This document shows, piece by piece, positions 7,218 through 37,631 of a stretch of DNA of 49,186 bases (positions within the stretch are counted from its first letter, which is position 1; every line of letters begins with the position of its first letter). The DNA is taken from assembly GCA_031178105.1 (NCBI GenBank), contig JAPSJX010000005.1:1-49186 (forward strand), written 5' to 3'. The notes under the pieces were generated by a model, which did not search any database, had not been told where the DNA came from, and was given only the letters and a program-made list of their open reading frames with translations. A program made the position numbers and the translations under genes. The DNA comes from Agrococcus sp. (GTDB lineage: Bacteria > Actinomycetota > Actinomycetes > Actinomycetales > Microbacteriaceae).

Positions 7218-8651
7218 ATGGTCGACACCGCCATCCTGGGCCACCGCATCCGGCACTACCGCACCGCGGCGGAGCTGACGCTCGACGCGCTGGGCGAGCG
7301 CATCGGGCTCGCGGGCAGCCAGCTCTCGCTCATCGAGAACGGCCACCGCGAGCCGAAGCTGAGCCACCTCCAGGCGATCGCCGAGGCGCTCGGCGTCGGC
7401 ACGGCCCAGCTGCTCGACCCGGAGCCGCCGAGCGAGCGCTCGCGCATGGAGCTCGACCTGCAGCGCCTGCAGGAGGGCGCGAGCTACCGGCGCCTCGGTC
7501 TGCCGACCGTGCGCCCGACGCGCTCGATGGGCGACGACCTGCTCGCGGCGCTCGTCGGCCTGCACCGGGAGCTCGACCGCCGAGCGCGCGAGGCGATCGC
7601 CACCCCGGAGCAGGCGCGGCGCGACGCGACCGCGCTGCGTCACCGGATGCGGGAGCAGGCGAACGAGCTGCCCGAGATCGAGGACATGGCAGAGGAGCAG
7701 CTGCGCGCCGTCGGCTACGAGGGCGGCAGCCTCACGCACCGCACGGTCAGCGAGATGGCGGCGCGGCTCGGCTTCGAGCTCGTCTACGTCACCGACCTGC
7801 CGCACTCGACGCGCTCGGTCACCGACCTCGAGAACGGCCGCATCTACCTGCCGCCGGCGTCGATCCCCGGCGGGCACGGCCTCCGCTCGATGGCGCTGCA
7901 GGCGCTCGCGCACCGGCTCCTCGGTCATCGCGAGCCGCGGGACTACAGCGAGTTCCTGCAGCAGCGGCTCGAGATCAACTACTTCGCCGCCGCCACGCTC
8001 ATGCCCCGGTCCCACGCCGTCGACTACCTGCGGAAGGCCAAGAAGGAGCGGAACCTCGCGGTCGAGGACTTCCGCGACGCGTTCGGCGTGACGCACGAGA
8101 CCGCGGCCATGCGGTTCTCGAACCTCGCGACGACCCACCTCGACCTGCGCGTCCACTTCCTGCGGGTGCAGGAGGACGGCGCACTCTCGCGCGTGTACGA
8201 GAACGACGGCATCCCGATCCCGGTGGACGCGTCCGGCCACGCGGAGGGCCAGCTCGTCTGCCGCAAGTTCGCGGCCCGCACGGCGTTCGAGCGCACGTCG
8301 CGCACGACCGAGTTCTACCAGTACACCGACACCCCGAACGGGACGTACTGGTGCTCGACGCAGACCGGCGCCGGCGCCGACGGCGAGTTCTCGATCTCGT
8401 TCGGCGTGCGGTTCGACGACGCGAAGCACTTCCGCGGCGCGCAGACGGCGTTCCGCGAGGTGTCCACGTGTCCCGACGAGCGCTGCTGCGCGCGTCCCGA
8501 CGACGGGCTCGTCGAGCGCTGGCGCCGCAAGTCGTGGGCGTCGGCCCGGATGCACCAGCACACGCTCGCGCCGCTGCCGTCCGGCACCTACCCGGGCGTC
8601 GACGACGCCGAGCTCTACGGCTTCCTCGAGCGGCACGCGCCCGCGCTGTGA
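7218..8651 (+). CDS. RamB/ScfR-like XRE-family transcriptional regulator
   Basis: A 477-residue regulator. Residues of about 8-62 form an XRE helix-turn-helix ([52 protein letters not shown]). A middle ImmA/IrrE-type region (about 170-290) has the metalloprotease-like position degenerate (LAHRLLGH in place of an HExxH site), as in other short-chain fatty acid regulators. The C-terminal ScfR domain carries a Cys cluster ([14 protein letters not shown]) and the conserved-looking [17 protein letters not shown]. RamB and its relatives act as acetyl- or propionyl-CoA related switches for glyoxylate, methylcitrate and gluconeogenic genes. The divergent neighbour pckG is the natural target candidate; the ligand cannot be read from sequence. 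Confidence 0.9.
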
Positions 8652-8671
8652 CCGCCGGCAGGCGCTGACCC

Positions 8672-8700
8672 TTGGCAGACACGCGAGCCGCCCGTAGCCT
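8672..8700 (+). promoter_or_regulatory. sigma-70-type promoter of the phosphatase-like gene
   Basis: TTGGCA (8672-8677), 17 bases, TAGCCT (8695-8700): the best complete promoter match in the window. A GAAGGAG ribosome binding site at 8719-8725 precedes the ATG at 8731, so this gene has a normal short leader. Confidence 0.6.
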
Positions 8701-8730
8701 GGCAGGGCCACGTCGACCGAAGGAGCCGAC

Positions 8731-35837: not shown

Positions 35838-36428
35838 ATGGGCACCGGTGGCTTCCTGGCCGAGCCCGAGCGGAGCGACGCGGTCGACGCGAAGTACGCC
35901 GGCGACATCGCGAGCGACGGCTACGTCATGAACCTGACCCGCACGTGGGCGCAGGCGCCGCCGGTGGACGACGCGTGGACGGCGTTCGCCGCCGCCTCGG
36001 CCGAGACAGCGGGGCTCACGTTCCGGCAGAAGGGCATCGTCGTGACCGCGCTCGCCGCGGCGCTCGGCGACGCCTACTGCTCGCTGGCGTGGGGCGCCCG
36101 GCTCGCGACGGCGAGCGATGCAGCGACGGCGCGCGCCGTGCTCGACGGCACCGACGACGGCCTCGACGACGACGAGCGGACGCTCGCGGCGTGGGCGCGG
36201 CAGCTCGTGCGCGACCCCAATGGCACGACGGCCGATGACGTCGACGCGCTCCGGCGCGCCGGCTTCGACGATCGCGCGATCCTCGGCCTCACCGCCTACA
36301 TCGCCGCCCGCATCGCGTTCTCGACCGTGAACGACGCGCTCGGCGCCGTCCCGGATGCCCAGCTGCGCGCCGCCGCCCCGGCGCCCGTGCGCGACGCGGT
36401 CACCTACGGACGTGCCGCGAGCGCCTGA
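35838..36428 (+). CDS. Carboxymuconolactone decarboxylase (CMD)/AhpD-like family protein
   Basis: A 196-residue helical protein of the AhpD-like superfamily: MNLTRTWAQAPPVDDAWTAF, LTFRQKGIVVTALAAALGDAYCSLAWGARLA, then LAAWARQLVRDPNGTTADDVDALRRAGFDDRAILGLTAYIAARIAFSTVNDALG, which closely follows the CMD fold. In AhpD-type peroxidases the central motif is CxxC; here it is YCSLAW, so the second Cys is Ala and a disulfide-based peroxidase cycle is unlikely. The single Cys could still be reactive. It begins the accessory block between prfA and prmC and has its own promoter and ribosome binding site. Confidence 0.87.
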   Translation: MGTGGFLAEPERSDAVDAKYAGDIASDGYVMNLTRTWAQAPPVDDAWTAFAAASAETAGLTFRQKGIVVTALAAALGDAYCSLAWGARLATASDAATARAVLDGTDDGLDDDERTLAAWARQLVRDPNGTTADDVDALRRAGFDDRAILGLTAYIAARIAFSTVNDALGAVPDAQLRAAAPAPVRDAVTYGRAASA

Positions 36429-36451: not shown

Positions 36452-36829
36452 ATGGACGCGCTGCTGCTCTGGCTCGGCTCCGGGCTGCTGGCGGCCGGCG
36501 CCATCGCGATCGCCGTCGTCGTCCACGCGATCGGTCTCGGGCGCATCGCGCCGTCGCCGGCGGTGGGCCTCCCGGGTCGGCGGCTGCGGACGGATGCCCG
36601 CGCCTACCGGGCATCGCACCGCGCCGCCACGCCGCTCACGTGGCTCACCGCATCCGTCGCCGCCGTCGCGGCCCTCGGTGCGCTCGCGGCGGGCGGTGCG
36701 GCGGGCGTCGAGGAGTGGGCGATCCTCGCCGTGCTCGCCGCCGTCGTGCTCGTCGTCGGCCTCGCGCTCGCCACCTGGCGGGCGCACTCGGCGCTCGGCG
36801 ACGTCGGCGACGACCCGCCGCCGGCCTGA
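36452..36829 (+). CDS. SdpI-like small membrane protein
   Basis: A 125-residue protein with three hydrophobic helices (about 5-28, 62-82 and 88-108). The segment between the first two, VGLPGRRLRTDARAYRASHRA, matches the conserved GLRTPxTxxDExAWxxxHR loop of SdpI/YhfL-type proteins. B. subtilis SdpI gives immunity to the SdpC toxin, but small actinobacterial relatives have no known role. CAGGAT six bases before the ATG could be a leaderless -10 box. It ends 43 bases upstream of the promoter of the guanidine module. Confidence 0.75.
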   Translation: MDALLLWLGSGLLAAGAIAIAVVVHAIGLGRIAPSPAVGLPGRRLRTDARAYRASHRAATPLTWLTASVAAVAALGALAAGGAAGVEEWAILAVLAAVVLVVGLALATWRAHSALGDVGDDPPPA

Positions 36830-36871: not shown

Positions 36872-36877
36872 TAGCCT
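36872..36877 (+). promoter_or_regulatory. candidate -10 box of the guanidine export operon
   Basis: TAGCCT placed so that transcription would start near 36884, about 14 bases before the riboswitch aptamer. Confidence 0.45.
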
Positions 36878-36897
36878 GAGCGCAGGCCCGCAGAGGG

Positions 36898-36939
36898 CCG
36901 CGGACGAGGGAGCCGTACCCGCACAGCGACAAGACGGCC
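36898..36939 (+). ncRNA. Guanidine-III riboswitch (ykkC-III class)
   Basis: The sequence CGCGGACGAGGG...GCCGTACCCGCACAG...ACAAGACGGC reproduces the conserved core of guanidine-III aptamers, as I recall it from Thermobifida fusca: GGACGAGG, GCCGUACCCG and GACAAGACGGC in the same order and spacing. The two helices of the pseudoknot can be drawn: GCGG (36900-36903) with CCGC (36919-36922), and GCCGT (36912-36916) with ACGGC (36934-36938). The 3' helix abuts the ribosome binding site (CGGAAGG, 36939-36945) of the first SMR gene, so ligand binding would control translation. The downstream genes are SMR exporters, the normal targets of this class. Confidence 0.9.
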
Positions 36940-36952
36940 GGAAGGGCTCGTC

Positions 36953-37267
36953 ATGGCGTGGGTGATCCTGGTGGCCTCCGGACTGCTGGAGGCGGTGTGG
37001 GCGGCCGCGATGCAGTCGTCGCAGGGCTTCCGCCGCTGGCGCCCGACCGTGCTGTTCGTGGTCGCGATGCTCGCGTCGATGGGCGGGCTCGCGCTCGCCA
37101 TGCGCGAGATCCCGACCGGCACCGCCTACGCGGTCTGGGTCGGCGTCGGCGCGGTCGCGACCGTTGCCCTGCAGGCGGCGCGCGGCAAGGAGCGGCTCAC
37201 GCTCGTGCGCTCGCTGCTGCTCGTCCTGCTCGTCGGCTGCCTCGTCGGCCTGAAGCTGGTGAGCTGA
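36953..37267 (+). CDS. SMR-family guanidinium exporter, subunit 1 (Gdx/SugE-like)
   Basis: A 104-residue protein with four membrane helices. The essential Glu of SMR transporters is in helix 1 (GLLEAVWAAAMQ, Glu13), and GTAYAVWVGVGAVAT in helix 3 carries the signature of the Gdx (SugE/YkkC) branch. These proteins exchange guanidinium for protons; the guanidine-III riboswitch just upstream makes that substrate the best call over quaternary ammonium drugs. The next gene is a second SMR subunit, so the pair likely forms a heterodimer, as YkkC/YkkD do. Confidence 0.92.
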   Translation: MAWVILVASGLLEAVWAAAMQSSQGFRRWRPTVLFVVAMLASMGGLALAMREIPTGTAYAVWVGVGAVATVALQAARGKERLTLVRSLLLVLLVGCLVGLKLVS

Positions 37268-37268
37268 G

Positions 37269-37631
37269 GTGGGTGCGCGCACCGCCTGGCTCGTGCTGCT
37301 CGCGAGCGCCGTGCTCGAGGCCGTCTGGGCGACGGCGCTCGGGGCGTCCGACGGCCTCGCCGAGCCGCTGCCCACCGCCGTGTTCACCGTCACGGCCGTG
37401 CTCAGCTTCATCGGACTGGAGCGAGCCGTGCGATCGATCCCGCTCGCGACCGGCTACGCGGTCTGGACGGGGATGGGCGGGGCGCTCACCGTGGTCTGGG
37501 CGCTCGTCGCGGGTTCGCAGCCGTGGAACCCGCTCGTGCTGCTCTTCCTCGCCGGGATCCTGGTCGCGGTCGCGGGACTCGCGCTGACCGAGCGAGCGGA
37601 GCCGGAGCCCGGCGCATCCGACCCGGCCTGA
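37269..37631 (+). CDS. SMR-family guanidinium exporter, subunit 2
   Basis: A 120-residue four-helix SMR protein starting at a GTG one base past the stop of subunit 1. Helix 1 has the same Glu context (AVLEAVWATALG), and helix 3 reads ATGYAVWTGMGGALTVVW. The C-terminus is extended by about 15 polar residues (ERAEPEPGASDPA) compared with subunit 1. The paired arrangement with opposite topology is typical of heterodimeric SMR transporters. Control is by the riboswitch at 36898-36939. Confidence 0.92.
   Translation: MGARTAWLVLLASAVLEAVWATALGASDGLAEPLPTAVFTVTAVLSFIGLERAVRSIPLATGYAVWTGMGGALTVVWALVAGSQPWNPLVLLFLAGILVAVAGLALTERAEPEPGASDPA

Follow-up and report, generated by a model that had tools for sequence, protein, structure and literature searches.

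A guanidine-III riboswitch before a two-gene operon for a probable heterodimeric Gdx-type guanidinium exporter in Agrococcus sp.

The window analysed here is the whole 49,186-nucleotide stretch of contig JAPSJX010000005.1 (GCA_031178105.1, Agrococcus sp.), read on the forward strand, in which a guanidine-III riboswitch aptamer at positions 36880-36942 is followed directly by two genes of small multidrug resistance (SMR) transporter subunits, A and B. We hold with high confidence that this arrangement is a translational ON switch, responding to guanidine, a toxic compound, and placed before a two-gene operon for a heterodimeric Gdx-type guanidinium/proton antiporter. The element genuinely belongs to a known class, whose usual role it plays, and is joined to a good heterodimer operon; the identification is correct and the member an ordinary one. 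Its interest lies in being a clean and conserved case, in which the sensor, the heterodimer topology and the genome context can be read together.

The riboswitch aptamer

A search of the window with cmscan against 4227 Rfam families matched the Guanidine-III model (RF01763) on the forward strand over its entire length, with 40.1 bits against a gathering score of 36 and an expectation value (E) of 5.2e-5; the only other Rfam match above gathering score in the window is a transfer RNA. When the draft genome of the same organism, which is incomplete (1.94 Mb, 65% complete), was searched with this family alone, the site was the sole match, with E 4.7e-7. The three conserved blocks of the class can be read directly in the sequence, namely GGACGAGG at 36902-36909, GCCGTACCCG at 36912-36921 and ACAAGACGGC at 36929-36938, and the two helices P1 and P2 of an H-type pseudoknot can form. 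Hence the original prediction, which had placed a guanidine-III core at 36898-36939 with both pseudoknot helices and had proposed an Infernal search with the Rfam covariance model as a check, is borne out on all these points. The parts of the aptamer are as follows:

36880-36942, forward strand: guanidine-III aptamer, the RF01763 match (cmscan, 40.1 bits)
36885-36889 with 36895-36899, forward strand: 5' hairpin of the aptamer, within the RF01763 match
36900-36903 with 36919-36922, forward strand: pseudoknot helix P1, read from the sequence, its pairs kept in all 104 leaders compared
36912-36916 with 36934-36938, forward strand: helix P2, from the Rfam consensus structure
C36905 (C6), G36906 (G7) and G36915 (G17), forward strand: predicted ligand contacts, by transfer of the PMC5696562 numbering

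The last assignment is our own transfer of the published numbering onto the window sequence, by which all three ligand-contact bases are found in place.

For comparison, 199 genomes of the same order, including the genome of the window, were searched, RF01763 matches being counted at E 0.001, and every one of the 107 matched sites was read individually. The counts below refer to a set of 98 leaders that precede an SMR gene and to a set of 104 true leaders, which adds six leaders of CBU_0592-family genes; these six are kept out of the SMR counts, three spurious matches (the second match in each of genomes G022 and G014 and the only one in G120) are kept out of the true-leader counts, and the leader of genome G012, which has no covariance-model match, lies outside both sets. 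P1 is not drawn as pairs in the Rfam consensus line, yet it is formed in every one of the 104 leaders (416 of 416 cells). Its outer pair is G-C in 44 of them, C-G in 59 and T-A in one, and one inner pair is compensated in leader L093. Because P1 is kept despite changes on both sides, the fold is supported beyond the model that found the leaders. Judged on its sequence, the stretch 36880-36942 is a genuine and ordinary guanidine-III aptamer that very probably binds guanidinium and controls expression.

Distribution among relatives

A match to RF01763 was found in 105 of the 199 genomes, above the cut-off in 101; one of the 105 (G120) has a spurious match alone. Among the 107 matched sites, 98 lie before an SMR gene, six before a CBU_0592-family gene and three are spurious. 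These three (L054 in G022, 31.2 bits; L055 in G014, 29.7 bits; L068 in G120, 32.7 bits) were rejected since they are spanned by long open frames and have no SMR gene on the stretch examined. All 24 genomes of the genus carry the aptamer before an SMR pair, 23 of them by the covariance model and G012 by eye, its leader having a shortened loop and third strand.

These data bear on the possibility that the window match is a chance hit in G+C-rich DNA before an ordinary multidrug SMR pair. Spurious matches were indeed read at scores of 29.7 to 32.7 bits. Two points count against the main reading: the score of the window itself is modest (40.1 against 36), and that of genome G014, a relative within the genus, falls at 35.2 bits slightly under the gathering score. 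A chance origin is nevertheless so improbable as to be nearly negligible: the window match exceeds the gathering score, each of the 24 genomes of the genus has the aptamer ahead of an SMR pair, P1 shows compensation, and the downstream proteins have Trp16, a residue typical of guanidinium exporters (see below).

The guanidine-III class may be scarce in general, since its unique representatives number 237 in all and come mainly from Actinobacteria (PMC12186494), but it is common among the searched genomes of this order. The description of the class as comparatively rare in the original prediction is thus not borne out by the matches in 105 of 199 searched genomes and by the aptamer in every genome of the genus.

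The transporter gene pair

The two genes that follow the aptamer adjoin closely, gene A starting 10 bases past the end of the aptamer match and gene B one base past the stop codon of A:

36953-37267, forward strand: SMR/Gdx subunit A, 104 amino acids, ATG start (PF00893, 78.9 bits; charge bias -4)
37269-37631, forward strand: SMR/Gdx subunit B, 120 amino acids, GTG start (PF00893, 55.8 bits; charge bias +5)

Both subunits exceed the cut-off of 23.7 bits of Pfam Multi_Drug_Res (PF00893), and subunit A matches Gdx-Clo (6wk5) over residues 1-103 with E 4.3e-20 (phmmer). In the alignment to Gdx-Clo, Glu13, Trp16, Ser42, Tyr59 and Trp62 are all present in both A and B, while the position of Lys101 is occupied by Lys in A and by Ala in B. 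Trp16 is conserved in Gdx proteins and replaced by Gly or Ala in Qac proteins (PMC7695847); because it and the other binding-site residues are present, A and B are of the Gdx type rather than the Qac type. One result speaks against this assignment: the best NCBIfam family for both proteins is SugE, but their scores of 86.3 and 47.4 bits remain below its cut-off of 126. We take the SugE model to be narrower than the Gdx subtype, and A and B are filed, by their residues, as Gdx-type proteins only, not as SugE equivalogs. The Gdx-type motifs and the pairing of the two SMR genes, both part of the original prediction, are therefore recovered by the family match, the five residues and the opposite charge biases.

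The charge bias was computed by the Arg/Lys formula of PMC9574504, with loop borders that we set ourselves. Among the 98 SMR leaders, 46 precede paired operons, in which the first subunit has a mean bias of -4.4 (-6 to -1) and the second of +5.0 (2 to 10), whereas the 52 singletons, for which a second SMR gene was not found, average 0.02 and stay between -1 and 1. According to PMC9574504, opposite biases mark heterodimers and near-zero biases mark dual-topology homodimers, the distributions of paired SMR proteins centre around +4 and -4, and paired operons make up about 20% of the Gdx proteins surveyed there. Because the Arg/Lys biases of A and B are opposite (-4 and +5), the two subunits are predicted to form a fixed antiparallel heterodimer. 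That each subunit instead homodimerises and no heterodimer exists is highly improbable: the retention of all five binding-site residues in each subunit would be compatible with it, but the biases are opposite in 46 of 46 pairs and lie between -1 and 1 in 52 of 52 singletons, and genes A and B adjoin with one base between them. On the protein sequences, then, A and B very probably export guanidinium as a heterodimeric Gdx-type guanidinium/proton antiporter.

The same genome (G000) has a third SMR gene, on contig C99 at 8436-8708 (L112), near the contig end, for which no guanidine-III match was found on the stretch examined.

A proposed mechanism of control

The elements on which a model of the switch can be built lie on either side of the aptamer:

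36872-36877, forward strand: TAGCCT, a probable -10 promoter element (TANNNT, by its position relative to the aptamer)
36933-36939 with 36945-36947 and 36949-36952, forward strand: alternative hairpin, the proposed OFF state, predicted by folding and abutting the start codon
36940-36946, forward strand: GGAAGGG, a Shine-Dalgarno-like run read from the sequence, part of it inside the loop of the alternative hairpin

Transcription would start close to the point where the aptamer begins. As long as guanidinium is absent, GACGGCC, the 3' strand of P2, would pair with GGCUCGUC directly before the AUG and hinder ribosome binding; guanidinium would stabilise P2 with the triplex, as well as P1, and the ribosome-binding site would be freed. 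B would then be translated together with A by translational coupling, and the two subunits would insert in opposite orientations and export guanidinium. This scheme agrees with PMC5696562, where guanidinium stabilises the triplex and P2 and thereby probably exposes the ribosome-binding site.

The pairing proposed for the OFF state is possible in the window, as GACGGCC (36933-36939) can pair with GGC and CGUC at 36945-36952. The resulting hairpin folds with -11.4 kcal/mol (z -3.2; 1 shuffle in 200 did as well), a value to be read with the fact that the stretch was picked after the fold had been seen. In the leader's fold of minimum energy this hairpin is present and P2 is absent, although folding without pseudoknots cannot weigh the aptamer fairly. 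Moreover, the triplet GTC stands immediately before the start codon in 61 of the 98 SMR leaders by script, or in 63 once two starts had been manually corrected; in a control the figure is 15 of 222. That control is crude, being made of starts that follow a Shine-Dalgarno-like run and open frames of at least 150 codons, not of annotated genes. Covariation of the OFF hairpin was assessed in two ways, both on 69 of the 98 leaders, the other 29, the window's own among them, being too short. In terms of duplex energy with bulges allowed, the observed leaders reach -7.3 kcal/mol against -6.7 in permuted ones, with 0 of 200 permutations as good, a difference that the relatedness of the leaders can explain.

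Several results weigh against the hiding of the ribosome-binding site in this form. The ungapped covariation test was negative, with 5.42 pairs observed against 5.54 when permuted and 1756 of 2000 permutations as good, and the OFF duplex is weak in some leaders, for instance L012, L026 and L101. Folding gives the full leader (36880-36975) no greater stability than its shuffles (z -0.97, 36 of 200 as good), and the same holds for the aptamer by itself when its pseudoknot is left out of the fold (z 0.85). Furthermore, the alternative hairpin puts part of the Shine-Dalgarno run in its loop. A different OFF pairing, between GACGAG of the aptamer and CUCGUC before the start codon, was tried and rejected: it had no weight in folding, and covariation cannot test it because the aptamer side hardly varies.

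Guanidine-III riboswitches also control the stability of messenger RNA (mRNA) (PMC12186494), and the switch could act mainly in this way, the folded pseudoknot shielding the mRNA from RNase E instead of the ribosome-binding site being hidden and released. In favour of this mode, the -10-like element lies very near to the aptamer, so that a transcript would start at about that point, and the position is a common one: a TANNNT motif lies within -14 to +4 bases of the start of the aptamer match in 23 of 23 leaders of the genus (G012 left aside) and in 65 of the 98 SMR leaders, whereas a control stretch lying 22-40 bases upstream has it in 2 of 98. No -35 element was identified for TAGCCT at 36872-36877. 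The weak covariation of the hiding hairpin points in the same direction, whereas the conserved GTC and the stable hairpin before the start codon point to translational control, and the two modes can act together. Control mainly by mRNA stability is rated as unlikely. We hold firmly to the assignment as an ON switch, and loosely to the exact structure of its OFF state.

Genomic place

In the window, prfA lies upstream of the operon, and downstream are cysE and cysK on the other strand, followed by prmC. The genes cysE, cysK and prmC are found within 6 kilobases downstream in 17 of the 23 other genomes of the genus, that is, in 18 of 24 when the window is included. Among the others, G009, G021 and G023 have rho and prfA upstream, with cysE not present on the stretch examined, and in G003, G012 and G015 neither flank was seen, two of these being on short contigs. 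Because the cysE-cysK-prmC context is shared by 18 of 24 genomes, the operon is not a recent insertion, and we infer that it had taken up this place at an early stage of the genus. The original prediction had thought the presence of the class in an insertion between prfA and prmC worth remark; the place is in fact a common one in the genus, and the notion of the element as a rare insertion is corrected.

Two frames upstream of the operon recur in this position in some members of the genus: a 196-amino-acid frame at 35838-36428, with a match below cut-off to peroxidase-related enzymes of NCBIfam, and a 125-amino-acid frame at 36452-36829, for which NCBIfam and Pfam searches gave no match.

Aptamer forms, operon types and a further gene family

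The outer pair of P1 (36900/36922 in the window) is G-C in 44 of the 46 paired operons and C-G in 51 of the 52 singletons. In a tree built from the first SMR protein behind each of the 98 leaders, paired genes need two label changes against a mean of 32.8 in shuffles, a contrast to be read with 32 of 95 inner branches drawn open and with near-copies that make clustering of the labels likely. Because both the outer P1 pair and the tree labels follow the pairing of the genes, the leader form and the operon type seem to be inherited together, for which a functional link is not needed.

In other genomes, the same class of aptamer precedes a different gene. The gene directly following a guanidine-III match above gathering score belongs to the CBU_0592 membrane family in 12 genomes (G077, G079, G119, G031, G113, G184, G496, G211, G375, G623, G704 and G618; leaders L064, L069, L085, L088, L100, L102, L114, L117, L119, L139, L148 and L152), and a thirteenth genome, G714, has such a leader by pattern only. 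All 12 of these small membrane proteins exceed the cut-off of NF047864. The riboswitch accompanies 4 of 10 CBU_0592 loci in the order and 3 of the 20 scanned (of 30) in the class, most of the scanned loci being without it. In five CBU_0592 leaders (G077, G079, G184, G375 and G618) the third strand GACAAGAC is replaced by a shortened GACGAC, which also occurs in the SMR leaders of G012 and G118; in the leaders with GACGAC (L056, L110, L064, L069, L102, L119 and L152), C6, G7 and G17 are kept by the transferred numbering. The CBU_0592-family proteins of G184 and G375 carry an ACT domain as a C-terminal extension (PF13840, 67.9 and 66.6 bits, cut-off 27; loci L119 and L118). A search of a library of open-licence papers gave none on CBU_0592. 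On this comparison, guanidine-III riboswitches may have a further family of target genes. We give an even chance to the broader proposal that the order has two inherited forms of guanidine-III, one of heterodimer operons and one of singletons, and that the same class controls the CBU_0592 family; if this is true, guanidine-III would govern, in that family outside the window, a second kind of protein that handles guanidine.

Comparison with known systems

The window element resembles the guanidine-III riboswitch of Thermobifida fusca (5NWQ, PMC5696562) in its full-length match, its P1/P2 pseudoknot, the SMR gene downstream and a nearby ribosome-binding site, and, by the transferred numbering, in the contacts C6, G7 and G17. 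The two differ in spacing: 16 nucleotides separate riboswitch and ribosome-binding site in T. fusca, while in the window the Shine-Dalgarno-like run begins 2 bases after P2. Unlike the guanidine-III leaders of singletons, of which 51 of 52 have a C-G outer pair in P1, the window has G-C. With respect to the SMR guanidinium exporters represented by Gdx-Clo (6wk5), A and B alike retain all five binding-site residues that were compared; the window differs in having two genes with opposite biases instead of one dual-topology gene, and in the Ala of subunit B at the position of Lys101. Lastly, no substantive difference was found from the paired SMR operons described in PMC9574504, which the window operon resembles in the adjacency of its genes and in their biases of -4 and +5.
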